DNA from: Streptococcus sp. 1643
GTDB lineage: Bacteria; Bacillota; Bacilli; Lactobacillales; Streptococcaceae
Assembly (NCBI RefSeq): GCF_006228325.1
Contig: NZ_CP040231.1
Span: forward strand, 817,001 to 881,000
Reading direction: 5' to 3'
DNA: 64,000 nucleotides
Shown one piece after another: positions 7,901 to 16,360 of this stretch. A program made the translations under genes and the position numbers. The notes beneath the pieces were generated by a model. It did no database searches. It was not told where the DNA came from and saw only the letters and a list, made by a program, of their open reading frames with translations. Position 1 is the stretch's first letter. Each line of letters begins with the position of its first letter.

Positions 7901-9283
7901 CTATTTTTGTTGAGTATTTTGGTTATCTTTGTTACTTTGTTCGGTGTCAGAGATAACCTTTTTTTTGTTCCATTGCATATTGCGAATAATAGTTTTTATT
8001 AGAATATCGATAGATTCGTTAACTGTAACTTGTTTATCTTGCGAAAAATCATATGAAATAAAAGGAGGCAATCCCCAAGGGATTTCTTCTTCATTAAAAA
8101 TTTCTTCTAATTGTTTTGTTGGGATTGATAATGTTGCACTATCATCATCTAGTTTAATTAAATAATCAATTCTACGATTAAATTGTCCTACATCTTCAGT
8201 AATATTTCCTTTTGCAATTGCAAAAAAATCAATAGGTTGTTTGGTACTTGTAATGATAATGACTTTTGCTGACCCCATTTTGTTATGATATCGCGCTGAT
8301 ATTGGACTAATCATAAAAGGATCGAGTAGTTTTAACCAATCAGATACAGTTAAACTGTCTCCTCTGATGTCATCAAGAAACAAAATTTCTTGACTATTAT
8401 ATTCATCAAAAGCATTAGTTGATGCTGTGACGCAGGAATCCCAAGTTTGTCCGAAATTTAAAGCTACATTTTGTAATAACGTTATCAGCTTCTTGCTGTA
8501 TTTTGTTTTTCCAACCCCACTTTTAGCAGTAACAAATAAAACTGTTTTCTTGAAGCTTCTTGCTTCAAGTTCTGCAATAGTCCTATAACTTTTTCGCTCT
8601 CCTACGGTATCTAAAGCTTCATTTATTTTTCGCTTATGTTGTCCATAGATAGCGTAATAATCATTCGTAAGCAAAATATTACTTTTGGTTATTTCTCCGG
8701 ACAATATCTTTTCAATTAACCAATCAATACTAAGATCTGTTTCCTTAGCTTTTTTGGTTGCACGACCTTTAACCCATGTTTCCATACATCTATGATAAAC
8801 GCTAGCGTAGTTTTCACCTTTTACAGTAACAACTTCGTCTGGTTTGTATTGATATTTACTCTCGTCCTTCGCATGGACTAAGTAGGCTAAACAATTATCA
8901 TATCCGTATCGACCAGACTTTAGTTTTTCTAGATATTGAGGTTCAACCCCAACAGCTAGAGCTATTCTGTTTAGTGATGCTCCTTTTTCAAACTTAAAGA
9001 GAAAATGAATATGTTCAGCTTTCTTTTTGATTACATTTTTCATCAATTCTTGATTCCAAACGTTTATCTCGTCTTTATCGTGTTTGATTCCGTAAGCCTC
9101 TTTAACAGTAATATCAGCTTTATTTAGTTTATCAGTGACTATCTCAAGTAGGGGGCGGATATTACTTTCATCTCTAGCCTTTTTTAAAGCTGTTTTATCT
9201 TGCCAAGTTTTCCAGTGTTCATCTTCCAGTTGTTGGACCAGCATGATAGCAGTTAGGTTTGCGTCTTTTTTATTTTTGTTCAT
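7901..9283 (-). CDS. rep: Rolling-circle replication initiator / putative relaxase: HUH endonuclease plus SF3-type helicase
   Basis: A 460-residue protein with two parts. The N-terminal half resembles plasmid RepB (Rep_2): the metal-binding HxH is H91-I-H93, and the nicking Tyr is probably Y144 or Y146 in KYQY. The C-terminal half is a superfamily-3 helicase-like ATPase with Walker A AKSGVGKT (residues 253-260) and Walker B ILFLDD. Rep_2-helicase fusions replace classical relaxases in some streptococcal mobilizable elements, so this protein may drive both replication of the excised circle and transfer. A strong hairpin at 9393-9424, upstream of its start, is the obvious nick-site candidate. 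SD AAGGAG precedes the ATG. Confidence 0.85.
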   Translation of the reverse strand: MNKNKKDANLTAIMLVQQLEDEHWKTWQDKTALKKARDESNIRPLLEIVTDKLNKADITVKEAYGIKHDKDEINVWNQELMKNVIKKKAEHIHFLFKFEKGASLNRIALAVGVEPQYLEKLKSGRYGYDNCLAYLVHAKDESKYQYKPDEVVTVKGENYASVYHRCMETWVKGRATKKAKETDLSIDWLIEKILSGEITKSNILLTNDYYAIYGQHKRKINEALDTVGERKSYRTIAELEARSFKKTVLFVTAKSGVGKTKYSKKLITLLQNVALNFGQTWDSCVTASTNAFDEYNSQEILFLDDIRGDSLTVSDWLKLLDPFMISPISARYHNKMGSAKVIIITSTKQPIDFFAIAKGNITEDVGQFNRRIDYLIKLDDDSATLSIPTKQLEEIFNEEEIPWGLPPFISYDFSQDKQVTVNESIDILIKTIIRNMQWNKKKVISDTEQSNKDNQNTQQK

Positions 9284-9562
9284 TATTAAGAACTCCTTGT
9301 TTTAATTATTCTTCTAACTATTCCCTAGATAAATCAAGAGAACTAATTTTTATAATTCGCTCAAATACTTGATATTCCTAGGTTTTTGAATATGCACGGC
9401 ACTTGACAAGCCCAGTGCCGTGCACGCGTTAGACATAGTTAGATTTAAAAGTGTTTCATCTTTTTCAAAGATAACCGACCTTATGACTCGTCGGCTTCGT
9501 CATGAATCCATTTGTTAATTCAACAGATTTCTCTAGTTGAAACACAAATGGATTATATTTCA
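9284..9562. other. Structured intergenic region: candidate origin of replication/transfer
   Basis: The region is gene-free and packed with inverted repeats. A perfect 11-bp stem occurs at 9393-9403/9414-9424 (TGCACGGCACT arms, 10-nt loop TGACAAGCCC). A 5-bp CCGAC/GTCGG pair lies near 9475-9494 and an ATGAC/GTCAT pair at 9483-9503. A second perfect 11-bp stem occurs at 9505-9515/9544-9554. It lies directly upstream of rep and downstream of the FtsK-like gene. The GC-rich hairpin in AT-rich DNA is typical of rolling-circle origins. The last stem could simply terminate the FtsK-like gene. Confidence 0.55.
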
Positions 9563-10915
9563 CTATTCTTCAAACCACGGCGTTTCATAGAAGTGTGGCA
9601 CTTCCCACTTTTTACCAGAACCTAAAATCCGAGCTAGTCCCTGACCTTTTCCATAACTTCTTTTAGCCATATCTGCAAAACCAGACATCAGATATTTACG
9701 TTCATCAGCAGAATCGGCAGCACCACCTAACATGATTACAGCATCGGAGCAATTTACACGAGCCAAGGAAGGTAAAAACCCTTCTTTTGTTGCAAACTGA
9801 CTAATAGCAATGATATGAATACCAGCAGAGCCACCAGTCGCAGATAGTCTGTTTATTGCATTGGTCCAGCGTGAAGTTGCTTTTAATGCTTTATCAGTCT
9901 TGTCTAGTGATTCTAATGAAGCATTTAGATTTCCGAGTTCATCGAAGAACAAGCCAATATTTGGCATGTGTTCCATTTCAAGATACTTTTCTTTTCCTGC
10001 TTCATTGATTTTTGAAAGTCGATCATCCATAATGCTACACCAATATTCAGCACGTTCAACAATCTTGGTAGGTTCTGATTGACCGTTAAATTCCTTGACG
10101 TATCGGTCGTATTTAGCAGAATTGTATTCAACTGTCCAACCTTGTAACAACATTAGTTTAGCCAAGTATCGACCAGCTAACACTGATTTCCCTGCTCTTG
10201 TTCGTGCAATGATAGACATCATGGGTACAATATCCGAATGCCATATTAGGTCTTTTGATAGCTTTATTGCATGTGTATCATCGTTTACAAATGGCTTTAA
10301 TGAATCTATATTGTCTTTTACAATCAAACGCTGTGAAGTAAGTGTATCTTCAAAATAGAAGAGAATATAGCTATCTCCAGCGGTTAGTTCGGAGTTGACA
10401 ACAGAGAAACGTTGATATTTACCTGATAGTATTCCAGATACTCGCTGTTCAAACTTTTCACGGTCTGCACGCTCCCAATTAGCGATATTTTCAATGGCTA
10501 TATATCCATCTATTAAGGTTTCATTAACCCAGACAGAAATTTCGGGCATTTCATCTCCGTATCTAGTGGAGTTTGAAAGTTTTAGAACATCGGTTATTTG
10601 TTTATCATTAAATAGTTGTTTCAGTTTTTTAGCCAGTTTTTTTGATTTGCTAGACATTGAAGGTATTGAAATTGTTGATACTTCTTCTCGTTTTGTGAAT
10701 AGAAGAACTAATAGCGATAAAAATATAGCATCTAGTAAGTAGAAGAGCAGTAGCGGTTTTGCAATATACGGTGCCAATATAGAATTTGAAAGACTTATGT
10801 AGAGTAGCAAGCCAGTTATACTGATTGTAACTACAAAAGCTATCAGAGAGATTTGATAGCCTTGTAATTTACAATTAGAAGTTGGTTTGATTCTTCTGAA
10901 TCTACGCTTACGCAT
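9563..10915 (-). CDS. FtsK/HerA-superfamily DNA translocase, TcpA-type coupling protein
   Basis: A 450-residue membrane ATPase. Two N-terminal hydrophobic segments (about residues 20-45 and 50-75) are followed by a motor domain. Its Walker A is atypical, ARTRAGKS, with Ala in place of the first Gly. Walker B is GLFFDELGNL. Proteins of this type in Gram-positive mobile elements couple relaxase-bound DNA to a secretion channel. With Rep it forms the mobilization module; no channel genes are present, so transfer would need a helper element. The start overlaps the upstream small gene by 8 bp. Confidence 0.83.
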   Translation of the reverse strand: MRKRRFRRIKPTSNCKLQGYQISLIAFVVTISITGLLLYISLSNSILAPYIAKPLLLFYLLDAIFLSLLVLLFTKREEVSTISIPSMSSKSKKLAKKLKQLFNDKQITDVLKLSNSTRYGDEMPEISVWVNETLIDGYIAIENIANWERADREKFEQRVSGILSGKYQRFSVVNSELTAGDSYILFYFEDTLTSQRLIVKDNIDSLKPFVNDDTHAIKLSKDLIWHSDIVPMMSIIARTRAGKSVLAGRYLAKLMLLQGWTVEYNSAKYDRYVKEFNGQSEPTKIVERAEYWCSIMDDRLSKINEAGKEKYLEMEHMPNIGLFFDELGNLNASLESLDKTDKALKATSRWTNAINRLSATGGSAGIHIIAISQFATKEGFLPSLARVNCSDAVIMLGGAADSADERKYLMSGFADMAKRSYGKGQGLARILGSGKKWEVPHFYETPWFEE

Positions 10916-11249
10916 TGCGTTGAACCACAGTTACTGAATCAGCAACATACCATCCTACACCACTAGCTGTTGCACCGCCACGTACATTTTTGAATTGAAG
11001 AATTGTACCAAACTTTACTTCAACCTTATTTGATGTTTTGATAGTATATTCAAGATCGTTGTTTGTGTCTACAATTGAATATTTAAATTTTCCATCAATT
11101 TCTTCAATTGAACCAATTGATACAACGTTCAAAACAGGAACAACATCAGTTGTATACTCATTACCTGTTTTCTCGCTAACCATTACTATGGGTTGTGTTT
11201 TTTGTTTGAGAACCTCCTCAAGAGTTCTATTCCAGTTAGTTTTTGCCAT
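10908..11249 (-). CDS. Small conserved element protein, function unknown
   Basis: 113 residues, rich in beta-strand-forming stretches (IVMVSEKTGNEY, KVEVKFGTILQFKN), without membrane segments. Proteins of this size beside the FtsK-like gene are common in Tn916-type and mobilizable elements (YdcP/DUF961-like), but the resemblance here is only in size, position and fold impression. Its last 8 bp overlap the FtsK-like gene and it lies 9 bp downstream of the next small gene, so it is part of one transcript. Confidence 0.65.
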   Translation of the reverse strand: MAKTNWNRTLEEVLKQKTQPIVMVSEKTGNEYTTDVVPVLNVVSIGSIEEIDGKFKYSIVDTNNDLEYTIKTSNKVEVKFGTILQFKNVRGGATASGVGWYVADSVTVVQRNA

Positions 11250-11258
11250 TATTAGTAC

Positions 11259-11552
11259 CTACTTTCTTTTTCTAAGGTCTGAAAAAATTTTTTCCAAACG
11301 AGCTATTAGATAATATTCATTATCAATCCTGCGAACTAGCTCATGATGTGACATAAAATCAATATCTGAGTCATAAGCGATAGATAGAGTTATGAAAGAA
11401 ACAACATCTTGTCCATGCCAGAGCTCTTTTAATTGAGTTGGTACATTTTCAAAATGCCAGTCATTAGTAATATGTTGATAAGCTGTGTTTCCGTAGTTTA
11501 TCAACCTGTAAGCATATAATTTACGAAGCGTCTGCTTCAAGTTTGTAATCAT
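11259..11552 (-). CDS. Small hypothetical protein, first gene of the element backbone operon
   Basis: 97 residues, not recognised. It is basic at both ends (ITNLKQTLRKLYAYRL; SDLRKRK) with an acidic middle, and no signal peptide or membrane helix is seen. AGAGGT lies 7 bases before the ATG. It is the promoter-proximal gene of the minus-strand run that continues to the FtsK-like gene. A role in regulation or replication is possible but unsupported. Confidence 0.6.
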   Translation of the reverse strand: MITNLKQTLRKLYAYRLINYGNTAYQHITNDWHFENVPTQLKELWHGQDVVSFITLSIAYDSDIDFMSHHELVRRIDNEYYLIARLEKIFSDLRKRK

Positions 11553-11728: not shown

Positions 11729-12865
11729 ATGGTAACTAATTTATTGAAATATTATTTGTCTAATTGTCAGAAACGAATAAATGAACGTATTGAGTTGATA
11801 AATTCTAGAAGAGTATCTTTGAGAAATAGTAGAGATATTAGATATAAGAAACTAAAAAAAATTAGAAATACTCACATTTACAAAAATAAACCAAAAATTA
11901 TAAAAGAAATACGAGAATTAGATTCAGATATACTCGTTGAAAAATTATCACTTACAGTTGCTCAGTCGTTGATTGATAATATTAAATTGAAACCTGATTT
12001 AATTTCAACGTCTTCTATAAAATCAGATGAGGAAAGAATGAGAAGTGAAAATTTAGAATTTAGAACACTTCAAGAATTGTTTTGGGGGGTTGATAAAGAA
12101 TTTACACAAAAAGATAAATTCAATTTCTTTTTGAATTTATTTTTAGATTTGGAAAGTGACGAGGAATATTCTTTTTATATCGAAAAAATATTATTGGATT
12201 ATGTTCCATATGCGAGAGAACTTGCATTTGAACAATATACAGAACATTATAAAAATTATGAATGTATTTTTGAAAATGATTCTAAAAATAATCATGTTGA
12301 TACATTTGCGGAGTCTGTTTATTTATTTTGTCTTTCTGATGTGTCTGAAACAATTTTTGAAAATTTTTTAGAGTTTTTAAGAAGTGATTACACTTATGAA
12401 TCTAAAGACAGTAATGGTCGTTATCAATTAAAAAAAGAAATAATTCATTTTCAAAATTTTGAAGATGCGTTTCGTAAATCAAACAAAGACATACTTGAAC
12501 CGATTCTTAATAAGAATACAAATAATTCACTAGGAAATAGAGCTTATAGTATTTTACTTGATGATTTAAAACTAGGTGATGAGTTAATGATTTTAGATAT
12601 AAGTAGAAGTTCAGAAGAATATGGGTACTATATTACTAGAGCAGAAAAAAATGAAATGGATGTTATGTTGGAATTGTTAGAAGCAAGTGAAGTTTATATT
12701 GAACAATTAGAGAATTTGCAAAAAGATATATTTGGTAATATTGAGCAGGAGTATTTTGATAGTGAGATGTTTTTGATTAAAGCATCACATCGTTTTTCAG
12801 AAGATAGATTTCTAAAGTTATTGGAAATAAAACAAATAGATGAATTTGAAAGCACTGTTAAATAG
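11729..12865 (+). CDS. Unknown AT-rich cargo protein next to restriction-modification genes
   Basis: A 378-residue soluble protein that I do not recognise. The N-terminal 60 residues are strongly basic and helical (LLKYYLSNCQKRINERIELI and following). The rest is acidic and rich in Asn, Glu and Phe, with a predicted coiled-coil stretch near 315-345 (LELLEASEVYIEQLENL). No nuclease, ATPase, methylase or membrane motif is evident. Base composition is visibly more AT-rich than the chromosome, which fits recent acquisition. It has its own near-consensus promoter and a GAGGTG ribosome site. Its place between the mobilization module and an RM system makes a defence role plausible, but this is inference from location only. 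Confidence 0.7.
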   Translation: MVTNLLKYYLSNCQKRINERIELINSRRVSLRNSRDIRYKKLKKIRNTHIYKNKPKIIKEIRELDSDILVEKLSLTVAQSLIDNIKLKPDLISTSSIKSDEERMRSENLEFRTLQELFWGVDKEFTQKDKFNFFLNLFLDLESDEEYSFYIEKILLDYVPYARELAFEQYTEHYKNYECIFENDSKNNHVDTFAESVYLFCLSDVSETIFENFLEFLRSDYTYESKDSNGRYQLKKEIIHFQNFEDAFRKSNKDILEPILNKNTNNSLGNRAYSILLDDLKLGDELMILDISRSSEEYGYYITRAEKNEMDVMLELLEASEVYIEQLENLQKDIFGNIEQEYFDSEMFLIKASHRFSEDRFLKLLEIKQIDEFESTVK

Positions 12866-12958: not shown

Positions 12959-15013
12959 ATGGCAAAAGGGAAAGCAAAAATTCAATCGGTTGAGCCTATG
13001 GTGGCTGATTTAGTCAATGGTTGGTTGAAATCTTATGATTTAGATTATAAATTAGAACAAGAAACATTAAATTCTGAAATCGATAAGGCTTTATTGGAGT
13101 ATGCTTCAAAGAATGGTGGTAAAGGTGGGAATCGCCCTGATGCAAAATTATTACTACAAGATAAGCACACAGATTATTGGCCGATTTTAATTGAGTATAA
13201 AGGTTATAAAGATAAATTAGAGAAGCTTGATAGCGATGGTCAGGTAGATAATCGAAAGAGTAAGAATGAACCCAATTACTCAAATATTAATTCCTTTGCT
13301 GTTAACGGGGCAGTACACTATGCAAACGCATTATTACATTATACAAGCTATACCAATATTATTTCTATAGGAGTTACTGGATATAAAGATGAGAATGGTG
13401 AAATTCAAACTCAAATCGGTGTCTACTATGTTTCGAAAGATAACTTTGGTATTGGTCAAAAAGTAGATGATTATACTGATCTCTCTTTTTTGAAATCTAG
13501 AAACTTTGATGCCTTTATTGAGAAAGTAAAAGCTTTGGAGTTGACTGCTGAGGAAGCTGAAAAATTAAAAGAGCAACGTGAGAAAGAAATTGATGCAAGT
13601 TTAACTAAACTTAACAATGATATTTATCAAAATGAAAAAGGTTTAGGAGAAAACGACCGTGTGTATCTAGTTGCTGCTTCTATTATTGCTACTCTAGGTG
13701 TACCTGGTAAAGTAAAACCATTAGATAAGGAAGATTTAAAATCATCAACTGAGGAAGAAAATAGAGATGGTGATATTGTTATTCGAAAAGTTAACTCTTT
13801 CTTGAAAGAGAAAAAAATTCCAAAAGCCAAAAAAGAGCTAATCATTCGCACGCTGAAAAATACACTAACTACAGAAAATATCAACAAGCCTGTAAATGGT
13901 GAAAGTCAATTAAAACGAGTATTCAGCAAAATTGTTGACGATTTGGGGATTTACTACAAGATTGGTTTGAACACTGACTTTACTGGAAAACTTTTCAATG
14001 AGATGTATTCATGGTTAGGTTTTACACAAGATAAGTTAAATGATGTTGTTCTAACTCCATCATACGTAGCTACATTATTAGTAAAATTAGCTCGTGTTGA
14101 TAAAGACTCTTATGTTTGGGACTTTGCAACTGGTTCTGCTGGACTTTTGGTATCAGCTATGAATGAAATGCTTAATGACGCCAAAGCTAAAATTACTTCT
14201 CCTGATGAACTATACAAAAAAGAGGCCGAAATTAAAGCTAATCAACTCTTAGGGTTAGAAATCTTATCATCTGTTTATATGCTTGCTGTTCTAAACATGA
14301 TTATGATGGGGGATGGTTCATCAAACATCATCAACGAAGACTCTCTAACACAATTTAATGGTAAGTATGGCTATGGCAAGACTGACGAGAGGTTTCCAGC
14401 GACAGCATTTGTCCTTAATCCTCCATATTCAGCAGATGGCAATGGTATGATTTTTGTTAAACGTGCACTTTCTATGATGGATAAAGGCTATGCATCTATC
14501 ATCATTCAGGGATCCGCTGGTAGTGGTAAGGCTTCTGAAATTAACAAGGAAATATTGAAGTCTAATCGTTTGTTAGCAAGTATCAAAATGCCTATAGACT
14601 TGTTTGTAGGGAAATCTAGTGTTCAGACCTATATCTATGTTTTTCGAGTGGGCGAAGCACACGAAAATGACTATACGGTAAAATTTATTGATTTTACAAA
14701 TGATGGTTATACCAGAAGCAATCGTAAGAAATCTAGTAATAATCTTAGAGATACAGACCATGCTAAAGAAAAGTATCAAGAAGTGGTAGATTTGGTGAAA
14801 TATGGTAAAAGCAAGCTACATTATCTAACAGAATCAGAATACTATGAAGGTAATATTGATGTATCAAAAGGTGATGACTGGAATCAAACCGCACCGATTG
14901 ACTTGAAACCAACACTGAATGATTTCAAGAAAACTATTAGTAATTATCTAGCTTGGGAAGTTTCCAATCTTTTACAAAATCAATCTACTGAAGATGAAAT
15001 GCTGGGAAAATAG
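12959..15013 (+). CDS. BcgI-like restriction-methylation subunit (PD-(D/E)xK nuclease fused to N6-adenine methylase)
   Basis: A 684-residue protein combining both enzymatic activities of an RM system. The N-terminal nuclease shows P60-D61, then E79-Y-K81, the PD-(D/E)xK pattern. The methylase follows, with the SAM motif DFATGSAG near residue 388 and catalytic NPPY at 487-490, of the HsdM/gamma-N6-adenine type. This is the layout of the A subunit of Type IIB enzymes such as BcgI, which needs a separate specificity (B) subunit. The adjacent downstream frame is such a subunit. The gene ends TAG directly after an in-phase GGGAAAA heptamer followed by a stem-loop, so a portion of ribosomes may continue into the S frame. 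Confidence 0.9.
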   Translation: MAKGKAKIQSVEPMVADLVNGWLKSYDLDYKLEQETLNSEIDKALLEYASKNGGKGGNRPDAKLLLQDKHTDYWPILIEYKGYKDKLEKLDSDGQVDNRKSKNEPNYSNINSFAVNGAVHYANALLHYTSYTNIISIGVTGYKDENGEIQTQIGVYYVSKDNFGIGQKVDDYTDLSFLKSRNFDAFIEKVKALELTAEEAEKLKEQREKEIDASLTKLNNDIYQNEKGLGENDRVYLVAASIIATLGVPGKVKPLDKEDLKSSTEEENRDGDIVIRKVNSFLKEKKIPKAKKELIIRTLKNTLTTENINKPVNGESQLKRVFSKIVDDLGIYYKIGLNTDFTGKLFNEMYSWLGFTQDKLNDVVLTPSYVATLLVKLARVDKDSYVWDFATGSAGLLVSAMNEMLNDAKAKITSPDELYKKEAEIKANQLLGLEILSSVYMLAVLNMIMMGDGSSNIINEDSLTQFNGKYGYGKTDERFPATAFVLNPPYSADGNGMIFVKRALSMMDKGYASIIIQGSAGSGKASEINKEILKSNRLLASIKMPIDLFVGKSSVQTYIYVFRVGEAHENDYTVKFIDFTNDGYTRSNRKKSSNNLRDTDHAKEKYQEVVDLVKYGKSKLHYLTESEYYEGNIDVSKGDDWNQTAPIDLKPTLNDFKKTISNYLAWEVSNLLQNQSTEDEMLGK

Positions 15014-15054
15014 ATGCCTCACTCAATCAAAAATTAGCAAATGTTGAGTGGGGC
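15004..15054 (+). promoter_or_regulatory. Candidate programmed -1 ribosomal frameshift signal joining RM and S
   Basis: The zero frame reads ctG GGA AAA TAG, so GGGAAAA (15004-15010) is a canonical X-XXY-YYZ heptamer in the correct phase. After a 5-nt spacer comes a stem: 15016-15026 pairs with 15044-15054 (11 bp including one G-U, loop of 17 nt; 15015 and 15055 can add a further G-U). The -1 frame continues without stop to 16161. Lambda gene G/T uses the closely related GGGAAAG. The fusion would be about 1,067 residues. Frameshifting itself is inferred; the elements are directly visible. Confidence 0.65.
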
Positions 15055-16161
15055 GAATATAGATTAGATGACTTGTTCTCTATTTCAACCTCTCGTGGAT
15101 ATGATGCAGGAAAGATGAATTTTGTTAAAAAGTCAACAGATACTTATGAATTTATTGGTCGAACACAAACCGATTATGGACTTCAAGGATATGTAAAAAA
15201 ATTAGATTCAAAACCAAATAAAGCTCACTGTATTTCAATAAGTCAGATAGGAGCTATTCATGCACAGTTAAGACAAAAAGAATGGTATTCTAGTCAGAAT
15301 ATGTTTATACTGGAACCTAACATTGAAAAATTGTTTAATCAATGGTTGATTGTAGTAATCAATAGAGCTTTATCGAAATATAGTGGGTATTCTAGTTATC
15401 CTACTTTATCTTCGTTGAAAGAGGAGATTATCTTACTTCCAACATGTAACAATCAAATAGACTTTGAATTTATGGAGTCCTTTATAGCGGAGCTAGAGGC
15501 AGAGCGTATAGCGGAGCTATCCGCTTACTTAAAAGTAAGCGGATTGGACAATTATGAATTGTCCGATGAAGAGCTGAAAGCTCTTCAAGATTATGATTCT
15601 ATGGAGTGGAGAGAATATCGTATTGGTAGCCTATTTAGTCGTATCAGTACCAAGAAATTACCTTACAAAGCTAAAGACTTACCAACAGAAGCGATTGATA
15701 ATTACGATTTACCTTGTTTGACTTCTAGCTTTAGAAACCAAGGTTTGAACTATTTTGCTCCAAAAGAAGGGGCAACGATCTTAAAAGATGTGATTTCTAT
15801 TCCATCCAACAGTGATGTGTATAGAGCATATTTCCAGTCAAGAGAATTTACTGTTTTATCAGATGCATATGCTATTAAATGGACTGATGAAGAGCAGAAA
15901 CTATCCAATTACCAGTACCTCTTCATAGTCAGAGCTATCAACAAAGTAACTGACTTACCAATTTATTCTTATAAAATGAAACTTGGTGGCTGGAATGTTG
16001 TTAAAAATAAGAATATTGCTTTGCCAGTTATAAATGATGAAATAGCATTTGATTTCATGGAAATCTTTGCAAGAGCTGTATCAAAATTAGCTATTAGAGA
16101 TGTGGTTCAGTATACAAATAACCGAATTGATGCAACTAAGAAAGTAGTAGCTAAAAACTAA
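15010..16161 (+). CDS. Specificity (S) subunit of the BcgI-like system, -1 frame relative to the RM subunit
   Basis: The frame is open from 14998. The coordinates here begin where a -1 shift would enter it and give 383 residues. The protein has two target-recognition halves with matching beginnings: VEWGEYRLDDLFSIS (from 15046) and MEWREYRIGSLFSRIS (from 15601). They are joined by a helical linker (AELEAERIAEL and following). No ATG, GTG or TTG occurs before TTG 15073. That codon lies inside the first conserved box, has no ribosome site and would remove the WGEYRLDD residues. So normal initiation looks impossible, and expression probably depends on frameshifting from the upstream gene, unless a base was lost. 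A terminator follows. Confidence 0.8.
   Translation: MDASLNQKLANVEWGEYRLDDLFSISTSRGYDAGKMNFVKKSTDTYEFIGRTQTDYGLQGYVKKLDSKPNKAHCISISQIGAIHAQLRQKEWYSSQNMFILEPNIEKLFNQWLIVVINRALSKYSGYSSYPTLSSLKEEIILLPTCNNQIDFEFMESFIAELEAERIAELSAYLKVSGLDNYELSDEELKALQDYDSMEWREYRIGSLFSRISTKKLPYKAKDLPTEAIDNYDLPCLTSSFRNQGLNYFAPKEGATILKDVISIPSNSDVYRAYFQSREFTVLSDAYAIKWTDEEQKLSNYQYLFIVRAINKVTDLPIYSYKMKLGGWNVVKNKNIALPVINDEIAFDFMEIFARAVSKLAIRDVVQYTNNRIDATKKVVAKN
15484..15519 (+). repeat. Two-unit 24-bp direct repeat in the S-subunit linker
   Basis: ATAGCGGAGCTA occurs at 15484-15495 and 15508-15519, a 24-bp period encoding IAELEAER then IAELSAYL. In Type I S subunits such as EcoR124, variable copies of a TAEL repeat in the same linker change the spacing of the recognition sequence, so a comparable role is conceivable here. 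Confidence 0.6.
15510..15587. repeat. Cluster of consecutive perfect hairpins inside the S gene
   Basis: Three hairpins sit almost end to end: 15519-15544 (12-bp stem, 2-nt loop), 15546-15564 (8-bp stem, 3-nt loop) and 15567-15587 (9-bp stem, 3-nt loop). A fourth, overlapping stem of 6 bp is at 15510-15525. They cover the codons for SAYLKVSGLDNYELSDEELKAL, the linker between recognition domains. Confidence 0.8.
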
Positions 16162-16195
16162 TTTTTTAAATTAAACATATTTAAGATATAAAAAA

Positions 16196-16224
16196 AGCAA
16201 CATCGAATTCAGTGTTGCTTTTTT
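16196..16224 (+). terminator. Terminator after the RM-S operon
   Basis: AGCAACA (16196-16202) pairs with TGTTGCT (16213-16219), followed by a run of T. It lies 34 bp after the S stop codon and closes the cargo operon inside the element. Confidence 0.85.
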
Positions 16225-16360
16225 GTACAATCTAGATACTACAGTGACTATTTTTTGACTTATTTTTAAAAATTGAATCTAAATAAAAATAATTTAATAA
16301 ACTATAGAAGCTATAAAAATAACATTTTTAAGATTTAGGTTTCTTAAAAAACTACTACGG

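Follow-up and report, generated by a model that had tools for sequence, protein, structure and literature searches.

A BcgI-like restriction-modification system of Streptococcus sp. 1643 whose specificity subunit is very probably made by programmed -1 ribosomal frameshifting

How is a specificity subunit produced when its reading frame has no plausible start codon? This question is raised by a restriction-modification locus in a 64,000-nucleotide stretch of the Streptococcus sp. 1643 genome (contig NZ_CP040231.1, positions 817,001 to 881,000; hereafter the window, whose numbering is used throughout), where a gene for a combined nuclease and methylase (RM) subunit runs into the reading frame of a specificity (S) subunit with two target recognition domains (TRDs). 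Comparison of the junction with those of its relatives makes it very probable that this is a BcgI-like (Type IIB) system and that its S subunit is made by programmed -1 ribosomal frameshifting.

The RM reading frame ends ctG GGA AAA TAG, with a slippery heptamer in phase immediately before the stop codon, and the -1 frame is open from 14998 to a stop at 16161, giving a conceptual RM-S fusion of 1067 residues (Table 1). An in-phase X_XXY_YYZ heptamer, a structure a few nucleotides (nt) 3' of it and a longer -1 open reading frame (ORF), the features that mark a -1 frameshift site, are thus all present. Translational coupling calls for an S start overlapping or near the RM stop, and the S frame in the window has no ATG, GTG or TTG before TTG 15073, which is probably not a real start. 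The first-pass annotation of the window had described the heptamer and its position, an open -1 frame giving about 1,067 residues, and the lack of a start codon before this TTG inside the first conserved box; direct reading bears out all of these. It had also described a 5-nt spacer followed by a hairpin, which holds, and had sized the hairpin at 11 bp with a 17-nt loop, which does not: folding gives 12 bp and a 15-nt loop (-18.1 kcal/mol, z -4.7), and none of 200 shuffled sequences was as stable. A search of Rfam found no family here: its single listed match, Spy779816, was on the opposite strand and below threshold, scoring 22.1 bits where the gathering score is 67 (E 0.2).

Table 1. Coordinates in the window of the RM/S locus and of the candidate frameshift signals
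Feature	Position	Strand	Basis
RM subunit (nuclease and N6-adenine methylase), 684 aa, zero-frame product	12959..15013	+	ORF; PF02384 E 7.5e-21; PADLOC REase_MTase_IIG PDLC03616 E 4.1e-236
Nuclease residues P60-D61...E79-Y80-K81 (PD...EYK)	13136..13201	+	alignment of 43 RM proteins
DFATGSAG, residues 388-395	14120..14143	+	D388 and G392 invariant in 43 RM proteins
NPPYS, residues 487-491	14417..14431	+	N487, P488 and P489 invariant in 43 RM proteins
Position of Shine-Dalgarno (SD)-like element (GAGGA in many relatives; weak GAAGA in the window)	14990..14994	+	codon counts, anti-SD energy minimum
Slippery heptamer G_GGA_AAA (GGGAAAA), X_XXY_YYZ phase of RM frame	15004..15010	+	read directly
S subunit, -1 frame, two TRDs; predicted C-terminal part of RM-S fusion	15004..16161	+	PF01420 E 1.3e-18, two stretches; Specificity_II
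RM stop TAG, directly 3' of heptamer	15011..15013	+	read directly
Hairpin 5' arm, 5 nt after heptamer, putative stimulator	15016..15027	+	fold, covariation
Hairpin 3' arm, also codes conserved VEWG of S	15043..15054	+	fold, covariation
TTG, first canonical start codon of S frame, within first conserved S box (RLDDLF)	15073..15075	+	sequence
Second TRD half of S, begins SMEWREYRIGSLF	15600..16158	+	two Methylase_S stretches; first-half model match

The encoded proteins have the make-up of a Type IIB enzyme. A chain with nuclease and N6-adenine methylase is indicated by the N6_Mtase match, by the PADLOC Type IIG model, which spans RM residues 7-676, and by K81, D388 and the NPP residues; the two Methylase_S stretches indicate an S subunit with two TRDs. 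The sole match of the nuclease domain, VRR_NUC, is below its cut-off. In the 43 aligned RM proteins K81 is invariant and P60 and E79 are at least 90% conserved, and we take PD...EYK to be a PD-(D/E)XK-like nuclease motif; DFATGSAG corresponds to the methylase motif I region and NPPYS to a methylase motif. Together these matches and residues support the BcgI-like identity first assigned to the system. Neither RM nor S matched the sequence of a solved structure (PDB chains) at E 0.001.

We collected relatives from a GTDB scan of species genomes (198 relatives, the best 80 of them kept), from a family search (matches in 52 of 335 genomes, 30 of these matches taken as loci), from a viral scan (8 loci) and from later searches (L119-L133), 133 loci in total. 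Five were left out because their RM protein was identical to that of another locus (L002, L004, L032, L116, L118), three because the match begins after residue 120 (L120, L126, L131) and one as a fragment short of the junction (L133). The final set holds 124 loci with distinct RM proteins. Automatic class labels were corrected by eye for L114, where an N-terminal extension had mimicked a fusion, and for L069 and L055, where the slip site is intact and S is broken later.

A slip site with S in the -1 frame was found in 108 of the 124 loci. The sites are of a GGG type (88 loci: 61 GGGAAAA, 25 GGGAAAG and 2 GGAAAAG) and an AAA type (20 loci: 13 AAAAAAA and 7 AAAAAAG). Of the 108, 87 have the stop directly after the heptamer and 19 have it 3 nt farther on; in one locus each the distance is 12 nt and 24 nt. 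The remaining loci are five in-frame RM-S fusions and 11 loci with a separate S in another frame (L089, L105, L107-L110, L121, L127-L130), these 11 all at 49% identity or less. The last 14 RM codons of these 11 separate-S loci contain no in-phase GGGAAAR or AAAAAAR heptamer, and in nine the S frame has an ATG that either overlaps the RM stop or precedes it by at most 11 nt; the S ATG of L089 is 16 nt downstream of the stop, and L128 offers a TTG in this region but no ATG. Hosts with a named phylum, known for 71 of the 108 slip-site loci, belong to 12 phyla; many are metagenome-assembled genomes, so single rare phyla may reflect contamination. Judged from these sequences, the slip signal is conserved far beyond the Streptococcus sp. 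1643 genome, across many bacterial phyla. The base before the slip codon is G in all 86 loci with GGA and A in all 20 with AAA, while the codon that it closes specifies various residues (L, S, E, V, P, A, T), so that selection on the protein alone is insufficient to explain the rule.

This conservation bears on two other origins of the frame break. In-frame single-chain fusions of RM and S exist (P0051 in our searches; AloI and TstI in the literature), and a recent frameshift mutation or an assembly error might have split such a gene here, leaving a pseudogene. A break of this kind occupies one and the same position in 108 of 124 loci, the hairpin that follows shows compensatory changes, and the host genome is a single contig of 1.90 Mb with a completeness of 99.98%; we give this explanation almost no chance and reject it because of the conservation, except that it could hold for single broken loci. 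Equally small is the chance that RNA polymerase slippage supplies the -1 frame. Seven A at 13 of the 108 sites and six A at 7 would suit it, whereas at 86 there are only three or four A after GGG, for which reason it was rejected as the general mechanism; in bacteria such slippage has been described at runs of roughly nine A or T (PMC5009743), and a hairpin and an SD-like element are stimulators that act on ribosomes. The first-pass annotation had named two arrangements that would speak against frameshifting, and neither occurs among near relatives: there is no five-A single continuous gene (L082-L085, at 90-95% identity, all read GGGAAAA-TAG), and separate-S homologues without the heptamer, although they exist, are found only at the low identities given above.

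The hairpin was examined in a gapless alignment of 82 close-group junctions (identity of 70% or more, with L115 added; AAAAAAG loci, L041, L048, L055 and truncated junctions excluded). Its 12 pairs hold in 95.9% of 984 cells, compared with 33-47% when the 3' arm is slid by 1-3 columns, and 54 cells are changed on both sides in a compensatory way, a number reached by none of 500 shuffles. RNAalifold, unprompted, recovers 10 of the 12 pairs. Conservation and covariation, as looked for in a frameshift gene, are thus both present. The arms also code A-S/P-L-N and V-E/K-W-G of S, so coding may confound the pairing, and codon choice serves as an internal control. In 82 loci (the close group minus L041, L047, L055, L069, L076 and the AAAAAAG loci), and with p values that take no account of relatedness, the leucine codon is CTT or CTC in 81 of 82 cases in the 5' arm as opposed to 11 of 80 in the loop (p 1e-32); glutamate in the 3' arm is GAG in 49 and GAA in none, while the next glutamate just outside is GAG in 17 and GAA in 50 (p 2e-18); and CTC is paired with GAG in 30 and with AAG in none, CTT with GAG in 19 and with AAG in 31 (p 2e-9). 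Folds of 55 nt were computed over 105 slip-site loci: z fell below -2 in 100 of them, and in 88 it was below -3. In the distant clades L090, L106, L114 and L132 a hairpin stands at this position with a quite different sequence. The homologue alignment proposed by the first-pass annotation thus showed conservation of the heptamer, its phase, the spacer and the stem, with compensatory changes and synonymous constraint on the paired bases, which supports frameshift expression at this junction, the slippage itself being predicted from these features.

In many relatives a second putative stimulator lies upstream of the heptamer. At codon -14 of 86 GGG-type loci GAG occurs in 40, GAA in 9 and other codons in 37, compared with 818 GAG and 2712 GAA in the same RM genes overall (enrichment of GAG, p 1.6e-17). 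The anti-SD pairing energy has its minimum at this SD-like element and a second, weaker one on the heptamer. The element ends 10 nt before the heptamer, and the SD-like element of dnaX likewise stands at about 10 nt upstream of its heptamer.

One rival explanation is separate translation of S, through termination and reinitiation at the RM stop (on ATGA, or on AUA or GUA at heptamer +6) or from TTG 15073, with heptamer and hairpin merely tuning the coupling. EcoKI offers a precedent, with M and S translationally coupled (PMC3510504), and the 11 more distant relatives do have a separate S. We surveyed S-frame starts between -30 and the conserved W in 106 slip-site loci (L055 and L069 left out): 64 have no ATG, GTG or TTG at all, and 98 of the 108 slip-site loci end RM with TAG or TAA. 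The SD-like element lies 16 nt from the +6 codon, and since an SD-to-start spacing of 16 nt is too long for initiation, it is too far away to serve initiation there. A hairpin directly downstream should hinder initiation as well, and coupling leaves the G/GGA and A/AAA rule unexplained. We regard separate translation as quite improbable.

Several observations nevertheless count against frameshifting as the way in which S is made. Some ATG, GTG or TTG is present in the surveyed stretch in 42 of the 106 loci; in 9 an ATG is made by the TGA stop (ATGA), where coupled initiation may also occur, and the other 33 have mostly TTG or an ATG in the hairpin loop. The window's own SD-like sequence is weak (GAAGA) though the group signal is strong, and the heptamer is imperfect in L003 and L070 (GGAAAAG). 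Five of the 105 folded loci have z above -2 at 55 nt (L088, L090, L091, L094, L099). With 75 nt, L090, L091 and L099 fold strongly and L088 reaches z -2.5, while L092 (z -1.5) and L094 (z -1.4) stay weak, with 6 and 8 of 100 shuffles as stable, and five loci in all (L092, L094, L003, L047, L104) lie between -1.4 and -1.9. Another kind of restriction system for which a -1 frameshift at a gene junction was considered and tested, the C-protein/REase fusion of NsoJS138I with its site GCAAAAA, gave no frameshift product in E. coli according to the passages on it in PMC3850674.

In the mechanism that we propose, ribosomes that do not slip would stop directly after the heptamer and release free RM, and a fraction would slip by -1 on X_XXA_AAR and continue into S to give an RM-S fusion. 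The hairpin, 5 nt downstream, would act as a stimulator of slippage, as would, in many relatives, the SD-like sequence lying 10 nt upstream. A single RM-S might then join one free RM in an (RM)2S unit with one catalytic chain per TRD, for which the slip efficiency would have to be near 50% if the ratio is to be exact.

Such a stoichiometric role of the frameshift, suggested already by the first-pass annotation, is likely, and it gains independent support from a link between TRD number and expression mode. Enzymes of the BcgI kind are 2RM:1S (PMC3874165, PMC4027205), and BsaXI is (RM)2S (PMC11997821). Among 106 slip-site loci surveyed for TRDs, 7 run off the contig, and all 99 readable ones encode two TRDs. 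S has at least 320 aa in 91 of the 99, and in all 91 both halves match a model of the first halves; the other 8 have a short, split or broken S, and the part that it lacks is represented by S-like sequence farther downstream. All five in-frame fusion loci have one TRD in the fused chain, and four of them (L086, L065, L081, L117) show no S-like sequence in up to 1500 nt downstream. Two TRDs at slip-site loci and one in most fusions fit the known 2RM:1S ratio. The six rows labelled as fused, L114 wrongly among them, need six separate changes on a quick tree, so fusion seems to have occurred repeatedly. Side by side with this, more S-like sequence downstream, mostly in another frame, was noted at the short-S loci L033, L036, L071, L075, L095, L103 and L123.

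Protein searches gave a similar picture, with the reservation that the rows of both lists are not independent. The 120 matches listed for a two-TRD in-frame fusion query comprised 4 proteins above 1010 aa, 2 of 926-1010, 110 of 790-925 and 4 of RM length. Of the 120 listed for an RM query, 114 were of RM length (111 with GK at the end, 2 with KK and 1 whose stop comes later), 5 measured 853-868 aa and a single one 1055 aa. Among the matches listed for both queries, 112 of the 116 proteins of at least 790 aa have one TRD and 4 have two. These four in-frame two-TRD fusions (P0051, P0193, P0227, P0230) are real exceptions, and they imply that free RM is dispensable in some members; they tell against the proposed mechanism, as does L125, whose first TRD is fused in frame to RM while the second is coded elsewhere in another frame.

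The frameshift might alternatively be real but owe its main value to holding S and RM together in cis, or to limiting the amount of S on entry into a new host, the 2:1 ratio being secondary. Fusion settles which partner S has and would keep the S subunits of different systems from mixing, and an M-S fusion of EcoKI is functional in vivo (PMC3510504). An in-frame fusion would do this equally well, yet two-TRD ones are rare (4 of the 120 matches listed for the two-TRD query) and one-TRD ones common, and we think this purpose unlikely to be the main one. We lean to the view that in a large branch of Type IIB systems -1 frameshifting is the standard way to one free RM plus one RM-S per complex, and that two-TRD frameshifting and one-TRD fusion are two solutions to 1RM:1TRD between which lineages have switched repeatedly. 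If the frameshift reading is true, programmed frameshifting is widespread as the way in which a bacterial defence enzyme is expressed, beyond the cases of transposases and dnaX.

The prediction that hosts with a second lysine tRNA (anticodon CUU) avoid AAG as the last slip codon was tested in 69 genomes with two tRNA patterns (70 of 103 whole-genome slip-site loci, counting only genomes with some lysine tRNA). For GGG-type and GGAAAAG loci, AAG occurred 6 times with and 15 times without CUU, and AAA 22 times with and 6 without (p 0.001); for all slip types the counts were 12 and 15 for AAG and 27 and 7 for AAA (p 0.007). We do not rely on this association: phylum confounds it, all six tested streptococcal AAAAAAG loci have the CUU tRNA, and 8 genomes showed no lysine tRNA by either pattern. 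In the hosts of L003 and L070, the two loci with GGAAAAG, lysine tRNA UUU was found by pattern and CUU was not.

Versions of the junction also occur in E. coli, where a query over the RM end and S matched 29 of 5426 complete genomes. In a phage record and six E. coli records, five junctions read GGGAAAG-TAA and two have A_AAA_AAG and one more codon before TAA, with a hairpin. The second E. coli type, seen in L139 and L141, carries at the same junction the heptamer of dnaX. The motifs that shift most efficiently in E. coli when a stimulator is present are C_CC.A_AA.G, G_GG.A_AA.G and A_AA.A_AA.G (PMC4066793). The natural E. coli versions of the junction would make tests easy. In four of the six E. 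coli records S is annotated as starting 68-74 nt after the RM stop, in two it is listed as a pseudogene missing its N-terminus, and in the phage record the annotated start lies 179 nt after the RM stop. If S is made by frameshifting, the S subunits of this branch are wrongly annotated, and a clone designed from such an annotation would be without the first conserved box of its S subunit.

As for the surroundings of the locus, replication-initiator-like and FtsK-like ORFs, read from their translations, adjoin it on the minus strand (7901-11552), which suggests a mobile element beside it. Streptococcus satellite phage Javan305 has a protein with 95% identity to RM residues 1-126. The 378-aa ORF just upstream of RM (11729-12865) matched nothing in Pfam, NCBIfam or PADLOC at E 0.001, and it was rejected as a partner gene, being present among the collected loci only in this genome and in its 95% relative L082 (ORF at 96%). 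Directly 3' of S, an inverted repeat followed by a T run (16190-16225) resembles an intrinsic terminator by eye.

The first-pass annotation knew of no restriction-modification system expressed by frameshifting, and our literature search agrees: it met no restriction system reported as expressed in this way, within a scope outside which lay supplements, REBASE and GeneTack, so that the family may sit unnoticed in a table. A term search of the main texts of two bacterial frameshift surveys (PMC3711429, PMC4066793) and of a review (PMC5009743) likewise gave no restriction system. The nearest known cassette is that of dnaX, which shares the X_XXA_AAR heptamer, the downstream hairpin (PMC5009743) and, with many of the relatives, an SD-like element (PMC5600365), and whose frameshift yields two products at 1:1 (PMC5009743). 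Its frameshift product is the shorter one in E. coli, whereas here it would be the longer, as in reversed dnaX layouts (PMC5009743).

Among restriction systems, the Type IA genes hsdM and hsdS of EcoKI lie in different frames at their junction, as RM and S do here, with a 1-nt overlap and translational coupling where the window locus has a slip signal. The EcoKI M-S fusion needs extra M: when purified, it gave an active restriction enzyme together with restriction subunits and extra M (PMC3510504). BcgI and BsaXI resemble the present system in their RM chain of nuclease and N6 methylase, in a two-TRD S and in the 2RM:1S expected here; they differ in that RM and S are described as two polypeptides (PMC3874165, PMC11997821, PMC4027205), while here RM-S is predicted and S has no plausible start. 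The HaeIV-like single-chain enzymes, thought to be homodimers, have one TRD per chain, as do L086, L065, L081 and L117; RM and TRD are already 1:1 in such enzymes, and no frameshift is needed. The single-chain Type IIB enzymes AloI, CjeI and TstI join RM and two TRDs in one chain, like the predicted frameshift product and P0051, but every chain of theirs is a fusion, which leaves 1RM:2TRD, and their action has been called a mystery (PMC3874165); here free RM is predicted as well. If our reading is true, frameshifting offers a simple account of how the 2RM:1S ratio is fixed; it also bears on the 1RM:2TRD puzzle of these single-chain enzymes.

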